Source: Spirochaetaceae bacterium
GTDB taxonomy: Bacteria > Spirochaetota > Spirochaetia > DSM-27196 > SLAA01
Direction: 5' to 3'
DNA: 58,591 nucleotides
Assembly (NCBI GenBank): GCA_007695055.1
Contig: REEM01000089.1
Coordinates: forward strand, 1-58,591
Shown here: positions 4,981 to 37,514 of the stretch, one piece after another
Layout: every line of letters begins with the position of its first letter
Numbering within the stretch: position 1 is the stretch's first letter
The notes under the pieces: generated by a model
Databases searched by the model: none
What the model saw: only the letters and a program-made list of their open reading frames with translations
Told to the model about the DNA's origin: nothing
Translations under genes and position numbers: made by a program

Positions 4981-5035
4981 GTACGGTATCTCCGAGTATG
5001 CTGAGATAGGATATAAAATATGCCATACACCGTAC
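4981..5035 (+). promoter_or_regulatory. Inverted repeats in the leader of the sigma-54 regulator gene
   Basis: TATCTC (4987-4992) and GAGATA (5003-5008) form perfect 6-base arms around a 10-base loop just upstream of ATG 5020. In addition GTACGG (4981-4986) can pair with CCGTAC (5030-5035) inside the coding start, enclosing the AGGA ribosome-binding site and start codon. This could be an operator (the first repeat) or a translation-limiting mRNA fold (the second); both are inferences from sequence symmetry. Confidence 0.35.
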
Positions 5036-6429
5036 TTGCTGTAGATGATGATCCGGTGCAACTCGAGATCATTGGAACTGTATGCTCCTCACTAGATCAA
5101 ACCGAGATTGAGTTTCTGCGTGCAGAGACACTTACCGACGGGATCAAGATGTGTGACCAGCGCTCTGTGGATCTTGTCCTCATTGACCATTTCTTGCCGG
5201 ATGGCACCGGAATGAACCTGGTCGACCACATGCATGCTCTGAACCCTGAGACACCGGTAATTGTCATTACCGCCCATGAGTCGGCTGTGGATGCGGTTGA
5301 GTTCCTGCGCCACGGCGCTGACGACTACCTCGTCAAGCCGCTTAAGGGCTCCGACATACAGAGAGTTATCCTCCGCTCTATTCAGCGCAGCCAGGAGCTA
5401 CGTGAAGGGGGCGCCTTTTACGATGTCGTGGCTGCCGAGCGGGATGGCAGCTTGTTGCTCAATTCGTTGAGCGATACTATGCGGTCGGTTCTGAGTGTGC
5501 TTGGGCGCTCGGCTGCGGGCACCGCAAATGTTCTCATTGAGGGTGAAAGCGGAACCGGCAAAGAGGTTCTTGCGCGCGCTATGCATCGTGTCAGTTCCCG
5601 TAAAGACGGCCCATTTATTGTTGTCAACTGTGCGGCGCTGCCTGAAAGCTTGATCGAGGCCGAGCTCTTTGGTGCCAAGAAAGGCGCCTATACCGGGTCT
5701 ACTGCTGACCGCAAGGGGCGCTTTCAGGAGGCTGATGGCGGTACCTTGTTCATTGATGAGGTGGGTGAGATTCCGCTCTCTATGCAGGTGAAGCTTCTGC
5801 GTGCCCTGCAGTTCAAGCAGATCGAGCCGGTGGGCTCCAATACAACTGTAAACTTTGACGCTCGCATTGTTGCCGCCACCAACCGCACTCTCAAAGACAT
5901 GGTTGATCATCAGGAGTTTCGTGAAGATCTGTACTACCGGCTCCGAGTCATTGGGATTCAGGTTCCGCCGCTGCGGGAACGCAAAGAAGATATTCCACTT
6001 TTGCTTGACTCCTTTCTGCAGCGATTTGCGGAGAGCAATGGCAAGGTGATTGAGGGTGTATCTCAAGAGGCACGGCAATGCTTTATGCGCTACAACTACC
6101 CCGGAAACATACGTGAGTTAGAAAACACCGTTGAGAGCGTTGTGGTCTTGGCGCGCGGCACAATCATTCGCCGTGGTGATCTACCTTCGCACATGCAGTT
6201 TGAGACCGAGCTTAACGTTGCTGGCTGCCTTGACGACGAAGTGCAGTGCGATGACGGGAACAGTGTGTTAGATGCACGCTTGAGGGCCTTTGAGCGAGAA
6301 CTGATTCGTGAGGCGCTGGACAAGGCGGAGGGTAATCAGAGCAAGGCGGCTCGGCTCCTTGGCATTGGAGAGCGCAGATTGCGCAGCCGGCTTGAGCGCC
6401 TCGGCCTCCGCGAGTCCAGTTCCGAGTAA
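5020..6429 (+). CDS. Sigma-54-dependent response regulator (NtrC family)
   Basis: A 469-residue activator with a receiver domain (about 1-125, phospho-acceptor Asp56 in LVLIDHF, Lys in LVKPL), an AAA+ domain (Walker A GESGTGKE at about 175-182, Walker B GTLFIDEVGE near 241) and a C-terminal Fis-type helix-turn-helix (NQSKAARLLGIGERRL, about 437-460). The sigma-54 contact loop reads GAYTGS (223-228) instead of GAFTGA, a variant that keeps the aromatic and Thr. No histidine kinase gene is adjacent. A sigma-54 -24/-12 promoter lies 260 bases downstream, in front of the pilus operon, making that operon the obvious local target. Start ATG 5020 has AGGA about 9 bases upstream. Confidence 0.92.
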   Translation: MPYTVLAVDDDPVQLEIIGTVCSSLDQTEIEFLRAETLTDGIKMCDQRSVDLVLIDHFLPDGTGMNLVDHMHALNPETPVIVITAHESAVDAVEFLRHGADDYLVKPLKGSDIQRVILRSIQRSQELREGGAFYDVVAAERDGSLLLNSLSDTMRSVLSVLGRSAAGTANVLIEGESGTGKEVLARAMHRVSSRKDGPFIVVNCAALPESLIEAELFGAKKGAYTGSTADRKGRFQEADGGTLFIDEVGEIPLSMQVKLLRALQFKQIEPVGSNTTVNFDARIVAATNRTLKDMVDHQEFREDLYYRLRVIGIQVPPLRERKEDIPLLLDSFLQRFAESNGKVIEGVSQEARQCFMRYNYPGNIRELENTVESVVVLARGTIIRRGDLPSHMQFETELNVAGCLDDEVQCDDGNSVLDARLRAFERELIREALDKAEGNQSKAARLLGIGERRLRSRLERLGLRESSSE

Positions 6430-6605
6430 GCGCTTGCGGCAGCTCGACATGTGGGTCGAGTTCTGGCTCTATGCTCGCCCCCGGTGTCGAGGCCAGCGGG
6501 TCTCACGCGCCCTAAGAGCCAAGAAACGGCGCCTTAACCAGCGCAGACCTTCCTATACAACACAGATCCTACCTAAATTCTCCATCTACAGCCTGTACCG
6601 CGGGT

Positions 6606-6642
6606 CCAATGAACTCTACTATATAGTTTACCGCCAATGAAC
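6606..6642 (+). promoter_or_regulatory. Candidate upstream activating sequence for the sigma-54 activator
   Basis: The 9-base direct repeat CCAATGAAC occurs twice, 28 bases apart (6606-6614 and 6634-6642), with the 10-base palindrome ACTATATAGT (6618-6627) between the copies. The palindrome centre is about 95 bases upstream of the predicted start at 6717. Binding by the adjacent activator is inferred from position only. Confidence 0.4.
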
Positions 6643-6690
6643 GCGGCAATTGCGGCGGGTTTTGCAGCTTCTTTCAGGTATTGTCCGTAC

Positions 6691-6707
6691 TTGGCACGCA
6701 ATGTGCA
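6691..6707 (+). promoter_or_regulatory. Sigma-54 (-24/-12) promoter of the chaperone-usher operon
   Basis: TTGGCACGCAATGTGCA matches the YTGGCACG-N4-TTGCW consensus at all but one position, with the invariant GG (6693-6694) and GC (6705-6706) separated by exactly 10 bases. Predicted transcription start is near 6717, giving a leader of about 25 bases to ATG 6743 with a GAGGAGG ribosome-binding site. No good sigma-70 promoter is seen at this place. Confidence 0.75.
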
Positions 6708-6742
6708 AATATATGGGTACAAATACTTGAGGAGGCGCAAAG

Positions 6743-7264
6743 ATGCGTATTTCAAAATTGACGATGGTTGCAGCGGTTTTCATGATGGTTGGTTCGATGG
6801 CAGCTTTTGCTACCCCGGCATTCCAAAGCACAGATTCAGATACATTGACGATTGGCGGCAATGTCCCAGCACGCGTGGATATTTCAATTGCAGGTGTAGA
6901 TGCAGAAGGCTTAGACCTGCAGTCGGTTGTAACGAATCGACTCATTGCAGAGGTAACTGAGCGCAGTAATGTTCGGGCTGGGTACACGGTGTCGGTGGAG
7001 TCCGCAAATGGCTTCAAGCTTCGCGGAACTTACACAGACGTAGACCAGGATGAGCTTGCCTACGCGCTGACATATGACGATGAGTCAGTAGACACGGCAA
7101 ACGGTTCCTTCACTTTCGCCAAGCGTGCCGCACGTACCGGATCAGGTCTGGGTCATAGCGGAGACACACGAGAGTTGAAGATTAGCTACGATGCACTGAA
7201 CGTGAACCTATTCGACGGGGACTATGAGGACACTTTGACCTTCACCATTACAGCGGAAGAATAA
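6743..7264 (+). CDS. Putative major pilin subunit of a chaperone-usher pilus
   Basis: A 173-residue exported protein: signal peptide of about 24 residues (MRISKLTMVAAVFMMVGSMA followed by AFATPAF), then a beta-rich mature domain with alternating hydrophobic strands ending in DGDYEDTLTFTITAEE, like the final strand of spore-coat-U/CsuA-type pilins. It has no cysteine, so the disulfide common in classical pilins is absent. No clear family motif is recognised. The pilin call rests on position (first gene after the sigma-54 promoter, directly before chaperone and usher), size, export and fold-like pattern. A hairpin terminator after it would make it the most abundant product of the operon. RBS GAGGAGG. 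Confidence 0.65.
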   Translation: MRISKLTMVAAVFMMVGSMAAFATPAFQSTDSDTLTIGGNVPARVDISIAGVDAEGLDLQSVVTNRLIAEVTERSNVRAGYTVSVESANGFKLRGTYTDVDQDELAYALTYDDESVDTANGSFTFAKRAARTGSGLGHSGDTRELKISYDALNVNLFDGDYEDTLTFTITAEE

Positions 7265-7338
7265 ACCAGAAGTACAGACTGGATTACGGATAGAGCTTGA
7301 GAAACGAAAGTACAAAAAGTGAAGAAGCAAAAACGTGA

Positions 7339-7367
7339 GTGGGCGTCTCAAAGGCGCCCACCCTTTT
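7339..7367 (+). terminator. Intra-operon hairpin terminator/attenuator between pilin and chaperone
   Basis: A 9-base-pair stem (7339-7347 with 7353-7361, one G-T pair) and a 5-base loop TCAAA, followed by CCTTTT. The short T-run suggests partial termination, so that the first gene is expressed above the chaperone and usher, as is usual in pilus operons. Confidence 0.65.
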
Positions 7368-7413
7368 CCGGTTAGATTTTCGGAACACATACAGCAGGAA
7401 GGATGGTAGAGCA

Positions 7414-8178
7414 ATGAAACGATTGGTGATGCTTTTAATTGCAGGTCTGGTGACTGCTCAGGCTTGGGGACTTAATCTTGAGCCCCTCTCAATGCGTTTC
7501 ACTCCAAGCGGGCGGGACAGTATTCGCACCTTTCGGGTAACGAACACCCAGGACGAGAGTATTGCGGTGCGTATACAGATGACAAGCCGCGAGCTCCAGT
7601 CAAACGGTGAGGAGTTTCGGCGCTCTGCAGATTCCCAGTTTATGGTATTTCCCAACCGCCTCTTTCTGGAGCCCGGGCAGACTCAAGCGGTTCGCGTACA
7701 GTGGCGAGGGCCAGCGAGTCTTGAGCGTGAGCAGGCTTACCGCATAATTGTGGAGCAGGTTGCCGTGGAACAAGAACGACCTGCGAATGAGGCCACATCC
7801 GGTGGTGTTTCACTGGCTTTCATGTATCGCTATGTTGGTGCCGTCTATATTTCGCCGCCCAATGCTCGTCCGAACATTGTTTTGAACAGTGCGCGAACTG
7901 CCGGTAGCAACGGCAGTGTGGTTGAGGCCTCGGTCTTGGCCCTTGAGTTTGAGAATACTGGCAGCGGACACACCGTGCTCCGTGAACCCGAAATTGTCAT
8001 TCGTGGAGAGACACTCTCCGGTGAGTCGGTTCGTTATGAACTGGATGCCGAACAACTGCGCGCCATAGCTGGAACGAACTTCCTGGCAGGCGCACGAGTT
8101 GTGCAGTTGGTATCCCTCCCGGTGCCTCTCAACGAGGCAACTCTTGAGGTTGAGCATAACCTCATGCTTTCCAAATAA
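7414..8178 (+). CDS. Periplasmic pilus chaperone (PapD-like, archaic type)
   Basis: A 254-residue exported protein: signal peptide MKRLVMLLIAGLVTAQAWG, then an immunoglobulin-like domain with the chaperone G1-strand pattern NRLFLEPGQTQAVRVQWRGP (about residues 84-103) and the strand AYRIIVEQV. The second domain holds the conserved VYISPPNARPN and a beta-sandwich end. These are the hallmarks of fimbrial chaperones that complete the fold of pilin subunits by donor-strand complementation in the periplasm; the pattern is closest to the archaic (Csu-like) class. ATG 7414 has AGGAAGG about 12 bases upstream; a GTG at 7339 lies in the terminator stem and is rejected. Separated from the usher gene by 11 bases. 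Confidence 0.88.
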   Translation: MKRLVMLLIAGLVTAQAWGLNLEPLSMRFTPSGRDSIRTFRVTNTQDESIAVRIQMTSRELQSNGEEFRRSADSQFMVFPNRLFLEPGQTQAVRVQWRGPASLEREQAYRIIVEQVAVEQERPANEATSGGVSLAFMYRYVGAVYISPPNARPNIVLNSARTAGSNGSVVEASVLALEFENTGSGHTVLREPEIVIRGETLSGESVRYELDAEQLRAIAGTNFLAGARVVQLVSLPVPLNEATLEVEHNLMLSK

Positions 8179-8189
8179 GGATTAGAACT

Positions 8190-10664
8190 ATGTTTGCTCG
8201 TTTGTTCGGCGCACATTCGGTACTTTTTCTTGCACTCATGCTTCTGGCCACCGTAGGTGCGAATCTGACTGCGCAAGAAGGTGCCATGATTGTGCCGATT
8301 GAGGTCAATGTCCGTGATGGACGTGTTGGCCGACGGGCAATGATTGACACACGATTAGGCTCTGACGGACGTGCAGATGCCTTCTGGGGAGACACACTGC
8401 GCCCTTTGCTTCAGGGCATGACCGCGCCACAGGTGTATGCCCAGCTACAGGATGCGGAGTGGCTGACGCTGGATCTATTGTCAGCCGCAGGGCTGCTGGT
8501 GGAGTATCGTGAAGCTGAGCTCTCGGCAGAAATACGTGTGCCAGCACCTGTACAACCTGTCCAGAACCTTTCGGTGCGCGGAACTCGCACCGCACCGCGA
8601 GATCCACGAGTGGAGCCTTCGTTCTTTAGCATTGCGCTCCCCTTCTACCTATCTGCGCAGCGGGTTGACCTTGGTGGCGCCTTCCTTGATCCCGATCTCA
8701 CCCAGAATCGATTTGGCATAGAGGCTCTTCCAAGCATTACTCTGGGAGGGACTGTGGCCGCAGCCAAGCTCAACTACTCAGTTCAAGATGACGAGTTCGC
8801 CCTTGATAACTGGGAGGCTGCACTGAGCCGTGACCTTGCCGGTACCACCCGCATTACCGCCGGTACCGCGCGTATTGACGCCTTAGGTTTCCAGACCTCC
8901 CAGCCAATTATGGGTTTGGGGATTGAACGCCGTGAAGGTATTGGCGCAACCCCAGTTCTGGCAGACCGGTTTCAGACCTCGTTTGAGATTGAGACAGAGA
9001 GCGTAGCCGCAATCTACCTGAATGAACGACTCATTCGTACAAGTCGTCTCGCACCGGGTAGCTACGAACTCTCGGAGTTCCCACTCCTTCCTGGGCTGAA
9101 TGATGTTCGTGTAGTCATTACCGACGTCTACGGTGACGAGCGTGTAATTCGCGGAAGGGTTTCTCACGCTCCGGGGCTGCTGCCACGAGGCGAAAGTGAG
9201 TTTGGTGTGCTTGGTGGTGTGGTTGGAGATGATTACGACATACTGCTCGGCCGAGCCTACTATCGCCGCGGGATTCTGGACGCTTTGAGTGGTGATATGT
9301 ACGGCGAAGCCAGCCAGGATGCACAGATGCTCGGTCTGAACTTTGTTGGTGCCTCTCGTATAGGCATTCTTGAACTAGGGGCAGCAGGTGTGTACGCAGG
9401 TGAAGCTAACCAAGAAGCCGACCAAGAAGCAGATGAGTGGCTGAATGCGGTGGAGTATGCGGTTCGTGCTGCCTATCGGCTCAGTACCCCGAACTACCGC
9501 CACCTTCCTTCCTTGGGACTGACCGCGCTCTACCGGAGTGAGGGCTTTTACGCACCCGGAACTCTACCTAACCAAAGGCCCGCCATTGTGCCTCCCTGGG
9601 TGCTCACCGCAACCTTGAACCAGTCACTGCCCTTTGGCGCATCATTGGTACTGGGATCGCGATACACCGTGGCTGCTGGTGATGCCTCCGACAGCGCCTC
9701 TCTTTTTGCGTATTTGGCAGCGCAGTTGAGCGGTAATGTCTCTGCTCGAGCTGGTCTCAACATAAACGACCTTACTGGTGACACCGAGGTGAGCGGTCGC
9801 CTGAGCATAGCGGTTGGGCTTGGTCGTGGCAGCTATCGGGGTACCTATCATGTGACTGATGAGGAGCTTGATATCTCTACTACCCAACGATTTGGTGGGC
9901 GCAGTGCCAATGGGAGTCTTGGTGTGGCGGTGGATCGCATTGATCCGCAGGCAGGCACCGCCCGCAGCGCAGCTGCCAATGTGCGGGCCGCGAATCCCCG
10001 GGCGGAAATTGCGGCTGCAGCCCGAGTGAGTCCGGGCGAGTCCCTGCTGGACAACAGCCCCGAGCGCAGTGAGGCTCGGGTTCGACTGGGCACAGGTCTC
10101 TATTTTGCAAATGGCGTGGTGGGAGTTGGCCGGCCAACAACCGGGAGCTTTGCCGTAATTGGGAAAGATCGCAGTCTCCCGCGCGGCCCTGTTCTGGTTA
10201 ACCCTAGTGGTGACGGTGCAGAGGCACGCACAGGACTTTTGGGAGGCGCAGTATTGAGTAGCATACCGGACTACTACGAGAAACCGGTGCGGATTGAGCT
10301 CCCGGATCTTCCCATTGACTATGCTCTGGACTGGAGCTCGGTAGTGGCTGAGTCCGGGTATCGAAGCGGTACGGGACTACGGGTGACTGGGGCACGCTTG
10401 CTTTACGGTAGCGGAAGTCTGGTTGATCAGGACGGTGCAGCGGTGGCCTTGCGAGTCATTCGGATTTTTAATGCTGAGGGACTGGTGCTCAGCAGCTTCA
10501 CCGACGAGAGCGGGCGCTTTGTCCTCTATGACCTCACGCCTGGTGAGTATGTGCTCAGGCTTGGCGATTCAGAGCGGAGCGTAGAGTTCTCTTTGGCAGC
10601 GTCTGAAGAACTCCCGCTTGATCTGGGCGTGCTGGTGCTTTCCGAACTGAGGGGGGAAAGATGA
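8190..10664 (+). CDS. Outer-membrane usher of a chaperone-usher pilus (FimD/PapC-like)
   Basis: An 824-residue exported protein with signal peptide (about 1-28, ending ANLTAQ). The middle part has alternating beta-strands of a large barrel, with the usher-typical passage ELSEFPLLPGLNDVRVVITDVYGDE (about residues 295-320, written here in two pieces: ELSEFPLLPGLND and VRVVITDVYGDE). This is the conserved YxLxDFPLxxGxNDVxVxV pattern next to the plug. The C-terminal domain (about 730-815) resembles the usher C-terminal or carboxypeptidase-regulatory-like beta-sandwich (FTDESGRFVLYDLTPGEYVL). It threads chaperone-subunit complexes through the outer membrane. Overlaps the next gene by 4 bases (ATGATAATGA). 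Divergent from proteobacterial ushers but the family call is solid. Confidence 0.85.
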   Translation: MFARLFGAHSVLFLALMLLATVGANLTAQEGAMIVPIEVNVRDGRVGRRAMIDTRLGSDGRADAFWGDTLRPLLQGMTAPQVYAQLQDAEWLTLDLLSAAGLLVEYREAELSAEIRVPAPVQPVQNLSVRGTRTAPRDPRVEPSFFSIALPFYLSAQRVDLGGAFLDPDLTQNRFGIEALPSITLGGTVAAAKLNYSVQDDEFALDNWEAALSRDLAGTTRITAGTARIDALGFQTSQPIMGLGIERREGIGATPVLADRFQTSFEIETESVAAIYLNERLIRTSRLAPGSYELSEFPLLPGLNDVRVVITDVYGDERVIRGRVSHAPGLLPRGESEFGVLGGVVGDDYDILLGRAYYRRGILDALSGDMYGEASQDAQMLGLNFVGASRIGILELGAAGVYAGEANQEADQEADEWLNAVEYAVRAAYRLSTPNYRHLPSLGLTALYRSEGFYAPGTLPNQRPAIVPPWVLTATLNQSLPFGASLVLGSRYTVAAGDASDSASLFAYLAAQLSGNVSARAGLNINDLTGDTEVSGRLSIAVGLGRGSYRGTYHVTDEELDISTTQRFGGRSANGSLGVAVDRIDPQAGTARSAAANVRAANPRAEIAAAARVSPGESLLDNSPERSEARVRLGTGLYFANGVVGVGRPTTGSFAVIGKDRSLPRGPVLVNPSGDGAEARTGLLGGAVLSSIPDYYEKPVRIELPDLPIDYALDWSSVVAESGYRSGTGLRVTGARLLYGSGSLVDQDGAAVALRVIRIFNAEGLVLSSFTDESGRFVLYDLTPGEYVLRLGDSERSVEFSLAASEELPLDLGVLVLSELRGER

Positions 10665-11539
10665 TAATGAAAAAGATCTTCATAGGATGTGCTCTATTGG
10701 TGGTTGTTGCGGGTGGTGCCTTTGGGTTTGGCCAAATAGAAATGACTACACCCGAGGCGGTGAGCGAGCAGTACTCCTATGACGGTGACATTGTGGTAGG
10801 GCGAACGGTCAGCCTTGTGGTTGGTAGTGGTGGCTCCGGTGTTAATAGAACGTACCGCATTGGCTTTAGTCCTGGTACATCCGGTGATGGTGGGAACAGA
10901 CGACTCTATTCCGCTTCCGGTGCCAGTATCCCGTATGAGATCCTAGACAGCGTGACTGGCGGAAACCAACTTAAAGATCTAGATGATGGGGGGCCGGTGC
11001 TTAGTGGAACTATTCCCAGTGGCGGGAGCGCAACTGAGAGCTTTGATGTACGGGTTTTTGGCGGCGCCTTACCGCACCCTGGCACCTACATCGACGAGGT
11101 CACGCTTACGGCTTACAATTTCAACAACGCACCCCAGGCTCAGGTGACACTCAGTATTGTGGTAAATATTCCGGCAAACATTAGCCTGGAGCTCAGCAGT
11201 AATCATCTTGAGCTCGGAGACCTGGTTGAGAATGCCTCTGGTTCCGTTCGGGTAACGGTCACCTCAAATGCTGACTACGGTATTGAGTTGAGCTCGCCGT
11301 ACAACAACTGGCGGATGGCGCATGAGGATCAAACGGTGGCGAGTTTTGTCCCGTACTCGCTCCGACTTGATGCGGTAAACCTTGACCTGTCGAGGAATCC
11401 CACCATGGTTCCTGGTTTTGGAATAACCGGGCAGGCTGGTCGAGAGCATCTTCTAGAAATTATTGTAGGTAATACTGACAATGCGGTCAGTGGGTACCAC
11501 TCGGACGTGATTGATATCACGGTGACTGCCAATCAGTGA
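10661..11539 (+). CDS. Putative second pilus subunit or tip adhesin
   Basis: A 292-residue exported protein with signal peptide of about 22 residues (MIMKKIFIGCALLVVVAGGA then FGFG). The mature part looks like two beta domains: an N-terminal one (about 25-165) and a C-terminal one (about 170-292) whose VVNIPANISLELSSNHLELG and final DVIDITVTANQ resemble CsuA/spore-coat-U pilin domains. A two-domain subunit at the end of a chaperone-usher operon is typically the tip adhesin. No cysteine remains in the mature protein. It overlaps the usher stop (ATGA), so it is translationally coupled. The binding target cannot be predicted. Confidence 0.65.
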   Translation: MIMKKIFIGCALLVVVAGGAFGFGQIEMTTPEAVSEQYSYDGDIVVGRTVSLVVGSGGSGVNRTYRIGFSPGTSGDGGNRRLYSASGASIPYEILDSVTGGNQLKDLDDGGPVLSGTIPSGGSATESFDVRVFGGALPHPGTYIDEVTLTAYNFNNAPQAQVTLSIVVNIPANISLELSSNHLELGDLVENASGSVRVTVTSNADYGIELSSPYNNWRMAHEDQTVASFVPYSLRLDAVNLDLSRNPTMVPGFGITGQAGREHLLEIIVGNTDNAVSGYHSDVIDITVTANQ

Positions 11540-22679: not shown

Positions 22680-25163
22680 CTAGTTGTCGAGTAAGTAGAA
22701 CTCTACTCGGCGGTTCTTCCAACGGTTCATTGCGTCGCTATGCTCTACAATTGGTTCGTAGCCGCCTTTGCCTGCGGTGCTCATGCGTGCCGAAGCTATT
22801 CCCCGTTGTACCAAAGCTGTTCGGACTGCCTCGGCCCGCATGCGGGACAGAGGTAGCAGGGTGTCTCGTTCCTCAAGCTCCCAACGCCCCGGCTGATTCC
22901 AAAGTACTCGTACGGCATGCCCTTCCAGTTCTATTCTGTGGTTGGGGTAGCGCTTCAAGATCTCGGCAAGGCGATCCAGGGTTGCAATGTTGCGCTCACG
23001 TACATCGGCCTCAACTCCAAGATAGTCAGCGGTGAAGGGACGGAAGTAAATGCTCGATATACTAATGCGTAGCCGGTCTCCGTCACGCAGTACCAGAATA
23101 TCGGTGGATATTGCAAACTCGCTCCGGCCTGCGTTACCCAGTTGATCCTCGGCTACCACCACCAGGGTGTAGTCACTTGCCGACTGCACCAGCTCGCCGG
23201 TTGACGACTTGCCGTCCCAGCTGAAGCTGCCATTGCGGAAGCGTGCCTGAGGCAGACTGAGGAAACGGTTACCTGCCGGGTCAAGAATCTCGGCTGACCA
23301 GGACTTCACCCCGCTCGGGTCGTCTACCCGAACCTGAATGTTGAGCGTGTCGTTGATCCCATCTCCGTCCGGAGAGAAGGGCAGCGGCGAGAGACGGACA
23401 TGTACGTCCGGTGGGCTCATGTCCAGCAGCACCGGGGTGTCACTGACTGCAGCACCTACGTTACCCTTGAGGTACACAACACTGAGGCGACCAGTATATG
23501 ATCCTTCGTTTACAGATCCGTCGGGTGCAGTGCCATTCCAGGCGATGGTCTCAGGTACTGTGCTTGTCTCACCGGAATGGTGCATTACTGCCTCACCGGC
23601 CGAGTCCAGCACCGCGAACTCCCAAGACTCTACCCCGTCCGTTACCTCGGGGCGCAGCTGGAACTCTACTATGGCGTCGAGACCACCCGCGGCCGGGTTG
23701 AAGGTAGACCGGGAGGGAACCACTCGTACCGGTGTCGGCCGAGTATCCACAACAATCCGTGGTATGGAGTGCGCGCCACGGTTACCTGCAGCGTCGGTTG
23801 CCACCAGGGTATAGGAGTAGGATCCGTCCGGAACGATGTTGCCAGCTGCATCGGTTCCATCCCACTCTAGGTTGGTGACCTGCCCCTGCCAGTTGAACTC
23901 ACGAACCAGGCGTCCGCGAGCGTCGTTAATTCGTCCGCGCCACTCGCCTTGCATCTCTGAGCTCTGAATGATTACTACCGAGTCCTTGCGTCCGTCTCCA
24001 TCCGGCGAGAACACCGGCAGCCCCGCGCGCACCGAGGCCTGTGGGGGAGTTATATCCAGTACAAAGCGTTCAGATGTGAGGCTGGGGCGTGCACCGTTGC
24101 GGTAGGTGACCTCAAGCAGGCCGTAGTACTCGCCTTCGGGCAGGCGTTGACCATTGTCGCCACGACCGTCAAAGACCACGGTCCCAGTGGCGATTTCGGC
24201 CGGAGTGAAACTCCGTCGTGGACTGCCAGCGGTGTCTATGACTTTCAATGCGATGTCGGCAATCTCCTCGCGTCCCTCGGCAGTCAGGGTGAAACGAACG
24301 GTGTCCTGAACTCCGTCGGCGTTGGGTGAGAAGGCCCGGGGGGTGACGTTCAGAGTGACCGGATATACGCTGAGGTCTAGTTGTATGCCAACAAGGCGCG
24401 TTTCAAATGAGTTGCCCGCTCGGTCGGTCGAGCGCAGTACGTAGGAATACTGGCCTTCGGCAGCAGCTTGGCCGTTCGCGGTGCGCCCATCCCATTCAAG
24501 GGTTTCAGGAGTACCGTTCCAGGTGAACTCACGCACCCGCCGTCCGGCGGTATCTACAATAGCGCCTACCCACAGATCCTCGGTGCTGGCGTTGGTGTGG
24601 AAAATATCAAGCGTGTCCTGCCTGCCGTCGCCGTTTGGTGAAAAGACCAGGTAGGGAGCACTCACATCAGCATGAGGCGCTTGGTTGTCCACAATCACGC
24701 GTAACGCTGGTGAGGAGCCACGGTTGTCCTTGTAGTCCCAGGCCTCGGCGCTTATGGTGTAGGGCCCGTCTGGGACCCAGTCACCACGAAAATCTACACC
24801 ATTCCATAGGAACTCAGAAGGAACTGCCACCGCTTTGGGGCGGCTGAAATAACGGCGAATGCCAGTGGGACGCTGTTCTGCTTGACCCGTGGAGTACACT
24901 TCCAGTCCGGCCTCGTTGGCGACAGATATTTCATAACCGGCAAGTTTGAGTCCCTTGAGCTCAGGTATATCCAGAGAGATGCGAATATCGTCCTGTACTC
25001 CGTCCATATTCCGGGGCGATATGTGGGTTTCCTCCGGGATGCTGGTATTGACAGGAATAGGCCCTTCAAATGATGCACAGGCGACCATGAGCGCCATTGC
25101 TACAATGCTAACAATGCCGAAATGCCGAAGCTGAGTTCGGCTGAACTGAGAGCGGTTCGTCAT
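22680..25163 (-). CDS. Large OmpA-type lipoprotein with repeated FlgD-like Ig domains
   Basis: An 827-residue outer-membrane-anchored protein. The signal MALMVACAS (Cys29) is a lipobox. The body has at least six repeats of about 100 residues, each with an (F/L)SP(N/D)GDG-type start, a W(D/N)G centre and an AxDxxGN end, the pattern of FlgD-type Ig repeats in spirochaete surface proteins. The last 120 residues are an OmpA/MotB peptidoglycan-binding domain (IELEGHAV, LSRMRAEAVRTAL, NRRVEFYL). It likely links outer membrane and cell wall or acts as a surface scaffold. The start overlaps the stop of the small upstream gene (ATGA). Confidence 0.88.
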   Translation of the reverse strand: MTNRSQFSRTQLRHFGIVSIVAMALMVACASFEGPIPVNTSIPEETHISPRNMDGVQDDIRISLDIPELKGLKLAGYEISVANEAGLEVYSTGQAEQRPTGIRRYFSRPKAVAVPSEFLWNGVDFRGDWVPDGPYTISAEAWDYKDNRGSSPALRVIVDNQAPHADVSAPYLVFSPNGDGRQDTLDIFHTNASTEDLWVGAIVDTAGRRVREFTWNGTPETLEWDGRTANGQAAAEGQYSYVLRSTDRAGNSFETRLVGIQLDLSVYPVTLNVTPRAFSPNADGVQDTVRFTLTAEGREEIADIALKVIDTAGSPRRSFTPAEIATGTVVFDGRGDNGQRLPEGEYYGLLEVTYRNGARPSLTSERFVLDITPPQASVRAGLPVFSPDGDGRKDSVVIIQSSEMQGEWRGRINDARGRLVREFNWQGQVTNLEWDGTDAAGNIVPDGSYSYTLVATDAAGNRGAHSIPRIVVDTRPTPVRVVPSRSTFNPAAGGLDAIVEFQLRPEVTDGVESWEFAVLDSAGEAVMHHSGETSTVPETIAWNGTAPDGSVNEGSYTGRLSVVYLKGNVGAAVSDTPVLLDMSPPDVHVRLSPLPFSPDGDGINDTLNIQVRVDDPSGVKSWSAEILDPAGNRFLSLPQARFRNGSFSWDGKSSTGELVQSASDYTLVVVAEDQLGNAGRSEFAISTDILVLRDGDRLRISISSIYFRPFTADYLGVEADVRERNIATLDRLAEILKRYPNHRIELEGHAVRVLWNQPGRWELEERDTLLPLSRMRAEAVRTALVQRGIASARMSTAGKGGYEPIVEHSDAMNRWKNRRVEFYLLDN

Positions 25164-34814: not shown

Positions 34815-37514
34815 CTAGTCCTGCAGATGAAACTCCGAACGCAGTGCCCCTCGCAACTCCACAAATGCATGCTCTAGCTCTGGGATCATCTGCAGGCAGT
34901 CCGCAATTCGGTTCTCTGAAGCCGCATGTTCAAGTTCAAGAGCGATTTGATACAGCCGAAACGCGGAAATATTCCCTGCGGAACCCTTGATCCGGTGCGC
35001 ACACTCGCGTACTTCCGAGTGAGACTCGTCTGCTTCTATAGACCGGCGCAGATGTGCAATGTGCTCCGGTGTTGTCTCTATGAATATGCCCGCGACCTCT
35101 GCGGCCAGTGTTTCATCGTTTACTACCCGTGCTAGAAAACTGGTTCGGTCAAAGACTGGGTTTTCGTTGTTCGCGGGCACAGCCTCCACCACCGTCTCCA
35201 CCGGTGCAATTTCGTCTCGTGGTGCTGGGGGTGGTGCTGGCGCTGGGGGCGGCTCGGTTGAGCGCTCCAAGTACCGCTCAAGTACGGCCATAACCTGCTC
35301 GGGTGAGATGGGCTTGGCAATGTAGTCGTCCATTCCGGCCTCGAGGCACCGCTCTTTGTCTCCCACAAGCGCGTGGGCGGTCATTGCAACTATGGGAATA
35401 GTCCGGGAAAGAACTCCATGGGCTCCCTGACGAATGAGTCTGGTGGCAGTCAGTCCGTCCATAATTGGCATCTGGACGTCCATGAACACCAGATCATAGG
35501 GAGCCATGGAAAGCGCCCGTACGGCTTCATTCCCGTCTGCTACGGTATCTACGCGGTGACCAAATTTTTCCAGTATGATACGCGCAACCTTCTGGTTGGT
35601 GACGTTGTCTTCTACTACCAGGATGCGAGCTGTAAGGTGCCCCGTACCCTGGCTGCCGGCCTCTCCGCCCTGTACCCTGCGTCCACCCGAGTCGGATGGA
35701 AGGACACCTCCGGTGCCTTGTTGCACCGCAACGAGGCAGTCAAGCAAGGTGCGCCGCTTAGCTGGTTTGCTTATAGCTCCGCAGAGTCCTACTGACCTCA
35801 GGTTGGCCATATCAATAGCTGTCCCGAATGGAATAAGCGCAACCGCATTTCCGCTGGCCCATGGTGGGTTTTCGGAGAGGTTATAATCGGGAAACGCCGT
35901 TCTCAGTAGCTCAACTAACTCGGGAGGATCAGAGCTTTGCTCGGCAGACCTTCCATGTACTACATCGAGAATAAGGAAGTCGTAGGAAGCCGGGGCCTCT
36001 ATTTCTTCCATACTACGGGCGGTTGTACAGGCTACGCCAAGCTCGTCAAGGAGCGCAGTGAGTGCGCGCCGAGTTGACGGTACCGTACTGAGCACCACGA
36101 CCTTAGCTTGGGAAAGCTTCTGCTGCGCGTTCGAAGGCCCAGCCACTCCGGTGCTGGCATGCTCCTCATGCTGCACGAGCGGGAGGCTAAAGCTGAAGCG
36201 GGAACCACAGCCGAGCTCACTCTCAACCGTTATTTCCCCACCCATCATTGTCACGAGTCTGCGCGAAATACTCAAACCAAGACCGGTACCCCCGTGTGAG
36301 CGGGTTGCGGATCCATCCACCTGCACAAACGGATCAAATAGCGATTGGATCTTGTCCGGAGCTATACCTATGCCGGAATCAATGACCTCAAACAGCAGCC
36401 GAGACGACACCTCTCTCTCGATACTGAGTCGAAGCTCAACGCTGCCCTCATTCGTAAACTTAATTGCATTCCCAACCAGGTTCAGGAGCACCTGCCGTAG
36501 GCGTCCGGGGTCGCCCTGAACAAAGGCCGGTACTTCCTTGGTTGTGTATGCGGAGAACTCAAGGTGTTTCTGACCGGCAACGAGCGCCAAGGCATCTCCG
36601 ACATCCTCAATGACTTGGGAGGGTGAGAATACCACCTCCTCCAGTTGCAGTTTCTCGGCCTCGAGCTTGGAGAAGTCAAGGATATCGTTGATAAGGAAGA
36701 GGAGTGTGTCGGCGCTTTGCCGAATAATTTCGGCGTACATCCGTTGGGAGTCATTGAGTTCCGAATCTAGCAGGACTCCAGCTAAACCAATTACCCCGTT
36801 GATTGGGGTGCGGATTTCGTGGCTCATATTGGCAAGGAACTCACCCTTTGTCTCGGCCGCAAGTTCGGCCTCGCGGGCTAGTCGTTCGGCTCGTACCAGC
36901 GCCTCTTCCAGTTCTTCCTCCGAGAGGCGGCGTTCGGTTATATCGTAGTTAATGCCGACAATGCGGACTGGAATGTCCTCGGAGTTGCGTATTACGAGTG
37001 CGGAACCGGCAAGATACTTCAGTTGCCCGTCTGGGTAGACAATGGGGAACTCCTGGTAGAATGAGCCCAGGGCTTTGTTGGGCTCCAGGTAATCCCGGGG
37101 CAAAATGCAGCGGCGCCAAAGTTCAAACGAGGGTTCGGTTTCTCCCGGATCCATGCCCACTAGCTCGTACATCCGCCTATCCCAATGAAGGGTATTGCCT
37201 ACAATATCAAAGTCCCAGACTCCTACCTGCATGCTTTCAATGGCAAGTTGAAGCTGCTCCGGTGAGTGCTCCATTTCTGCTGTTTGTGGTTCGGCTGGCG
37301 CAGGGGTGTTTCGCAGAGCTGAAACAACAAGAAAGAGGGCAACAGCTAGTGAGCCTGCGGTGAGGAACTGAGCTACCATGAGAGCCTGAGCTATGTCGGA
37401 GAGGATGAATGTGCTCATGAGGCTCAGTAAGCCAAGCAGCAGTGCATATAGGACATGGTGGAGCGGCCCCTGCTTGGGCGAGGCTGTGGTGGACGGCGAA
37501 GGATTTATTACCAT
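34815..37514 (-). CDS. Hybrid sensor histidine kinase with PAS, two receivers and Hpt
   Basis: An 899-residue membrane kinase: two N-terminal spans (about 18-70), a PAS domain (about 85-215), HisKA with phospho-acceptor His in FLANMSHEIRTPINGV (about 245), ATPase (GTGLGLSISRRLV), a first receiver (about 465-610; LILDVVHGRS) that looks degenerate with a long insert, a second intact receiver (about 625-745; Asp in LVFMDVQMP), a Pro-rich linker and a C-terminal Hpt (His in CAHRIKGSAGN). A full phosphorelay in one chain. Its ATG sits in the stop of the ABC ATPase gene (TAATG), a tight translational coupling. No response regulator gene adjoins. Confidence 0.9.
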   Translation of the reverse strand: MVINPSPSTTASPKQGPLHHVLYALLLGLLSLMSTFILSDIAQALMVAQFLTAGSLAVALFLVVSALRNTPAPAEPQTAEMEHSPEQLQLAIESMQVGVWDFDIVGNTLHWDRRMYELVGMDPGETEPSFELWRRCILPRDYLEPNKALGSFYQEFPIVYPDGQLKYLAGSALVIRNSEDIPVRIVGINYDITERRLSEEELEEALVRAERLAREAELAAETKGEFLANMSHEIRTPINGVIGLAGVLLDSELNDSQRMYAEIIRQSADTLLFLINDILDFSKLEAEKLQLEEVVFSPSQVIEDVGDALALVAGQKHLEFSAYTTKEVPAFVQGDPGRLRQVLLNLVGNAIKFTNEGSVELRLSIEREVSSRLLFEVIDSGIGIAPDKIQSLFDPFVQVDGSATRSHGGTGLGLSISRRLVTMMGGEITVESELGCGSRFSFSLPLVQHEEHASTGVAGPSNAQQKLSQAKVVVLSTVPSTRRALTALLDELGVACTTARSMEEIEAPASYDFLILDVVHGRSAEQSSDPPELVELLRTAFPDYNLSENPPWASGNAVALIPFGTAIDMANLRSVGLCGAISKPAKRRTLLDCLVAVQQGTGGVLPSDSGGRRVQGGEAGSQGTGHLTARILVVEDNVTNQKVARIILEKFGHRVDTVADGNEAVRALSMAPYDLVFMDVQMPIMDGLTATRLIRQGAHGVLSRTIPIVAMTAHALVGDKERCLEAGMDDYIAKPISPEQVMAVLERYLERSTEPPPAPAPPPAPRDEIAPVETVVEAVPANNENPVFDRTSFLARVVNDETLAAEVAGIFIETTPEHIAHLRRSIEADESHSEVRECAHRIKGSAGNISAFRLYQIALELEHAASENRIADCLQMIPELEHAFVELRGALRSEFHLQD

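Follow-up and report, generated by a model that had tools for sequence, protein, structure and literature searches.

A chaperone-usher fibre operon in a spirochaete, adjoined by a sigma-54 activator and carrying the matching promoter signature

The spirochaete DNA analyzed here, a contiguous stretch of 58.6 kb (“the window”), contains at positions 6743–11539 an operon whose open reading frames encode, in order, a pilin, a chaperone, an usher, and a two-domain subunit. Very probably, these four genes specify a non-classical, archaic-like assembly machine that, on demand, extends a thin adhesive fibre across the outer membrane of the spirochaete. The machine is of a known kind and belongs to a little-noticed lineage, and its sigma-54 circuit is clear and apparently dedicated. 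An earlier note, made from the sequence, had proposed a sigma-54-controlled chaperone-usher pilus in a spirochaete-like genome. Four kinds of evidence back such an operon, namely profiles, folds, individual residues, and a comparison of promoters: the four open reading frames lie in one operon where the note had placed them, and their identities follow from profile and fold.

Proteobacteria have provided well-studied cases of chaperone-usher assembly, and the parts that define the pathway are present here, namely an usher modelled as a plugged barrel, a PapD-like chaperone, and a pilin with a predicted Ig-like fold. The usher (8190–10664, forward strand) comprises an N-terminal domain, the barrel, and a C-terminal Ig-like domain. 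The Pfam Usher family (PF00577) matched neither this protein alone nor anything else in the genome, and a single-sequence search of the PDB gave usher matches at chance level only. Of 25 relatives, 14 match Pfam Usher, and a profile built from all 25 retrieved FimD and PapC from the PDB over ~575 positions (E ~1e-14). In Foldseek, the AF2 model (pLDDT 85.8) likewise retrieves FimD or PapC from the PDB in each of the 19 leading matches (best, FimD, E 3.7e-35), with moderate TM-scores to FimD of 0.60–0.63. Since profile and fold both lead to FimD and PapC, we regard the Pfam miss as a false negative. The match to PapC expected by the earlier note is therefore borne out by the relatives’ profile and by the predicted barrel, although not by the Pfam search with the single sequence.

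The pilin (6743–7264, forward strand) has no match in Pfam. In its AF2 model (pLDDT 83.4), a signal peptide and a flexible N-terminal extension, the latter modelled at low confidence, precede an Ig-like sandwich that in Foldseek matches almost exclusively chaperone-usher pilins, with CfaB, Caf1, CsuA/B, and SafA at the top. As modelled, the protein is an incomplete-Ig pilin with an N-terminal donor extension. The chaperone (7414–8178, forward strand) starts at the ATG at 7414, preceded by AGGATGG, within a longer GTG open reading frame that opens at 7339. It matches PapD_N with an E-value of 1.9e-8, above the Pfam cut-off, and its profile finds CsuC best (5.4e-6), followed by EcpB and CfaA, with no classical chaperone among the matches. 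Residues P80, R110, and Y140 are invariant in 20/20 relatives and align with Pro59, Arg89, and the donor-strand Tyr116 of CsuC, P80 being the superfamily-invariant proline of PapD-like chaperones. Arg89 is described as the foremost hallmark of chaperones outside the classical group (PMC4654587), and by its equivalent R110 the window chaperone is of the non-classical (archaic and alternative) type. The last gene (10661–11539, forward strand), which overlaps the usher stop by 4 bases, encodes an SCPU domain and a pilin-like domain. The SCPU family, which the earlier note had named for a profile check, is matched (PF05229, E 2.3e-7) and was found in 18/18 relatives as well; the best profile match is CsuE (6.9e-6), which points to this subunit as the probable tip adhesin.

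The class “archaic”, given in the earlier note, stands only in part. It is the nearest class by chaperone (CsuC) and by adhesin (CsuE/SCPU), but the Csu-type cysteine pair, invariant in archaic pilin domains (PMC4654587 Fig 1), is missing: the mature proteins of all 22 pilins compared contain no cysteine. Two or more cysteines are present in FimA and in most archaic-type pilins from plasmids; the residue is absent from EcpA and from one Leptolyngbya pilin. The SCPU subunit of the archaic (sigma) class is represented by the adhesin, and the pilin resembles the SCPU type weakly. The CooC_C and TcfC domains of the alternative class are missing from the window usher, with a weak TcfC match alone in 4/25 relatives. 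Because CsuC and CsuE are nearest and yet the pilins are cysteine-free, we label the system non-classical, archaic-like. A cyanobacterial plasmid pilin (L090, 803–1342) is also cysteine-free and ends in YTDTLTFTLTSK as the spirochaete pilins do, a possible link between the groups.

Between the pilin and chaperone genes we found a hairpin absent from the earlier note (7339–7361, forward strand), of the form GTGGGCGTCT-CAA-AGGCGCCCAC followed by CCTTTT. This ten-pair hairpin is kept in the four genus members, with one inner pair appearing as U-G, U-A, or C-G, and a terminator scan called no terminator there by its own rule. By analogy with other pilus operons, the hairpin may raise pilin mRNA relative to the remaining genes of the operon.

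Upstream of the operon lies the gene of a sigma-54 activator (5020–6429, forward strand), with a receiver (Response_reg, 1e-22), an AAA+ domain (Sigma54_activat, 6.6e-67), and a C-terminal Fis-type helix-turn-helix (HTH_8, 5e-11) by Pfam. The AAA+ domain carries a GAYTGS loop, which is GAFTGA-like. Among 11 orthologues, receiver residues D9, D10, D56, T84, and K106 are invariant, and the receiver residues, the Walker motif, and the recognition helix ERRLRSRLERLG are, taken together, largely conserved; rpoN was found in the window genome. The “phosphorelay control” of the earlier note is supported as far as the intact receiver goes, but in neither the window nor the mapped relatives was a histidine kinase seen next to the operon. 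A large hybrid histidine kinase resembling BarA/TorS is encoded at 34815–37514, unlinked to the pilus operon, and nothing connects it with the activator.

The activator gene stops 261 bases before a -24/-12 element, 260 by the earlier note’s count. This sigma-54 promoter, TTGGCACGCAATGTGCA at 6691–6707 on the forward strand, has exact GG-N10-GC spacing, and its GC ends 36 bases 5' of the pilin ATG, so that its coordinates and spacing agree with those given before. No second perfect TGGCACGNNNNNTGC occurs in the window. Across the genome there are six TTGGCACGNNNNNTGC sites, compared with 1 and 0 on the two strands for a reversed-pattern control; the other five (L080–L083 and L085) are probable sigma-54 promoters elsewhere in the genome. 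Between the activator gene and the promoter, we identified two tandem 18-bp dyads of the form YTCGMC-N6-GKCGAR, which the earlier note had missed and which make the sigma-54 reading stronger: CTCGACATGTGGGTCGAG at 6443–6460 and CTCGCCCCCGGTGTCGAG at 6474–6491, 31 bp apart, the predicted enhancer site of the activator. In the window genome, this is the sole tandem pair, with single dyads at chance level (11 versus 12 in the control). Because the pair is the genome’s only one, the activator looks dedicated to the pilus operon. Altogether, the components of NtrC-type control are present, namely a GAFTGA-like activator, tandem upstream dyads, a -24/-12 promoter, and rpoN.

When upstream regions were compared, TTGGCACG-N4/5-TGC was found upstream of the pilin in operons with an adjacent activator. 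Of 24 operons compared, those with such an activator have dyads in 12/12 cases and those without it in 0/12 (Fisher, p 7e-7), and the promoter in 11/12 and 0/12, respectively (p 1e-5), with both p-values overstating independence since the operons share ancestry and with both motifs defined partly on loci that were later counted. One operon (L036) has the promoter in variant form only, TGGCATGAAACTTACT. The -24/-12 promoter keeps its sequence and its place in different families, and only where the activator adjoins. Shuffled sequences would give 0.005 perfect dyads, whereas 17 were counted in 11 loci, and the dyad-to-dyad distance is mostly 20–22 or 30–32 bp (43 bp in L033). Two checks reach beyond the motif-defining loci. 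At L058, the dyads were seen before an activator was known there, and the activator was then located by DNA reading and tblastn. In addition, the tandem-dyad pattern alone, restricted to the GGCGA form of the dyad and hence giving an incomplete site list, returned four sites in 46 genomes of the order, 4/4 at activator-pilin junctions. Three of these are known operons, and the fourth, on the previously unexamined contig G035:C313, has the order activator, dyads, promoter, pilin gene. The literature searched held no description of a sigma-54-controlled chaperone-usher locus; one likely paper on sigma-54 control proved to concern a sulfide operon, not pili.

The four-gene kit with its neighboring regulator is carried by soda-lake spirochaetes. 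That the genome is spirochaetal, as previously suggested, is confirmed: in a search of contigs with a five-row usher profile (the full 25-row alignment being too diverse), contigs of the same genus, family, and order carried the names Spirochaeta, Spirochaetales, and Spirochaetaceae MAGs, and the window genome encodes several flagellins and FlaA, the latter missing from 14/14 control genomes. Order-mates named Spirochaetales and the presence of FlaA also speak against the placement in Proteobacteria that the earlier note had considered. Elsewhere in the window, the large protein encoded at 22680–25163 combines FlgD-like repeats with a C-terminus resembling OmpA; its partial similarity to Leptospira Lsa66 is far below the family cut-off.

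Matches to the window usher were found in 32/81 close relatives, and in a 296-genome sample of the phylum convincing matches were confined to the class. The matches in three genomes outside it (G083, G236, and G251) cover the C-terminal Ig-like domain only and were not counted as ushers. The operon is conserved across families. Published archaic systems come from Proteobacteria, Cyanobacteria, and Deinococcus-Thermus (PMC4654587). The earlier note knew of no characterized spirochaete example; none appeared in the literature we searched, although the fimbrial usher family is already listed for Spirochaetae (PMC4827864 Table 1). The genus also has a second, paralogous chaperone-usher operon without an activator (L046, L047, and G000:C82, or L048, the window genome’s own copy, interrupted by a contig end). 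A sigma-70-like sequence, TTGAAT/TTGTAT-N17-TATAAT/TATACT, is readable ahead of the pilin gene at both L046 and L047. Another family within the class (L049, L057, and members coded f16), which accounts for a large share of the usher-positive sample, has an usher of a different type, ~1,095–1,250 residues long, with its own chaperone and no SCPU match detected.

We considered where the operon comes from and how it is read. That the operon was recently acquired from Proteobacteria, or that it is contaminating DNA of a metagenome bin, might be suspected from an assembly in 245 contigs and from how common archaic ushers are in Proteobacteria. We consider this very improbable, given that genus-mates have the same operon with the same flanking genes, that usher relatives span the class and occur in a genome made up of one contig (G013), and that in a quick usher tree the window ushers group with their order-mates at 99% SH-aLRT. 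In that tree, the archaic-type ushers from plasmids branch among those of the spirochaetes, several forks lack resolution, and the EcpC and FimD branches are very long. It is just as hard to credit that the -24/-12 element is a chance match and that the operon is transcribed from a promoter of the sigma-70 type. The GG-N10-GC pattern is short, and no such site belongs to the paralogous chaperone-usher operon in the genus, but the conservation of the element beside the activator only, together with genome-unique tandem dyads that retrieve activator-pilin junctions alone, argues against coincidence.

What the machinery makes leaves somewhat more room for doubt, since the same proteins could lay down a surface coat instead of an extended fibre. 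Surface coat deposition has been proposed for the spore-coat protein U locus of Myxococcus, and the last subunit here is an SCPU-domain protein, of the family named for a spore-coat protein. Nevertheless, one major pilin with an N-terminal extension plus a two-domain subunit is the layout of a fibre system, and the pilin’s fold matches are themselves fibre subunits. A coat is therefore an unlikely product, and a fibre remains our preferred reading.

For the fibre, we envisage the following sequence. A kinase would phosphorylate the activator encoded at 5020–6429, whose oligomer would bind the two dyads ~210–240 bp upstream of the -24 element and remodel sigma-54 RNA polymerase at 6691–6707. 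The transcript would begin with the pilin, and the hairpin after that gene probably lifts pilin mRNA over that of the machinery. In the periplasm, the chaperone would lend its strand G1 (L134/F136/Y138/Y140) to the Ig fold of each incomplete pilin while R110 grips the pilin C-terminus; the usher would then exchange the chaperone for the N-terminal strand of the next pilin and extrude the fibre, with the two-domain subunit presumably at its tip.

More broadly, we lean slightly toward the view that cysteine-free chaperone-usher fibres form an old and mostly unannotated lineage within the spirochaetes, and that one branch carries its own dedicated sigma-54 switch, giving an inducible external adhesive fibre in cells with internal flagella, a fibre that would have to be assembled around or between the flagellar filaments. 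The Spirochaetia-wide set, convincing in structural terms, widens the published range of archaic chaperone-usher systems, and the blindness of the Pfam usher model to the ushers of the window genome and some relatives suggests that such fibres are under-counted. The conserved activator, tandem dyad, and promoter offer a ready experimental handle, and the system prompts one to ask how such a fibre is put together across an envelope with rotating flagella in its periplasm.

Among known systems, the classical type 1 and P pili (FimD, PapC) share the usher fold and assembly principle with the window system, whereas no classical chaperone was matched and identity in the usher fold matches is only 11–15%. 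The alternative E. coli common pilus (EcpABCD) has the same order of pilin, chaperone, usher, and last subunit, a cysteine-free pilin, and, in EcpB, the second-best chaperone match; however, EcpC has strong CooC_C and TcfC domains that the window usher lacks, and the regulators differ. Archaic-type operons on plasmids of Leptolyngbya, Vibrio, and Novosphingobium have ushers intermixed with the spirochaete ushers in the quick tree, and one Leptolyngbya pilin is likewise cysteine-free, but, unlike the window operon, they have no NtrC-type activator in the neighborhoods seen. By profile, the nearest chaperone and tip adhesin are CsuC and CsuE of the archaic Csu pilus of Acinetobacter baumannii. 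The equivalents of Pro59, Arg89, and Tyr116 are invariant in the spirochaete chaperones, and the last subunit has two domains in both systems, whereas Csu has several pilins in place of one and the spirochaete pilins are without cysteines. Csu is regulated by BfmRS (PMC7315123), in contrast to the window operon with its adjacent sigma-54 activator.
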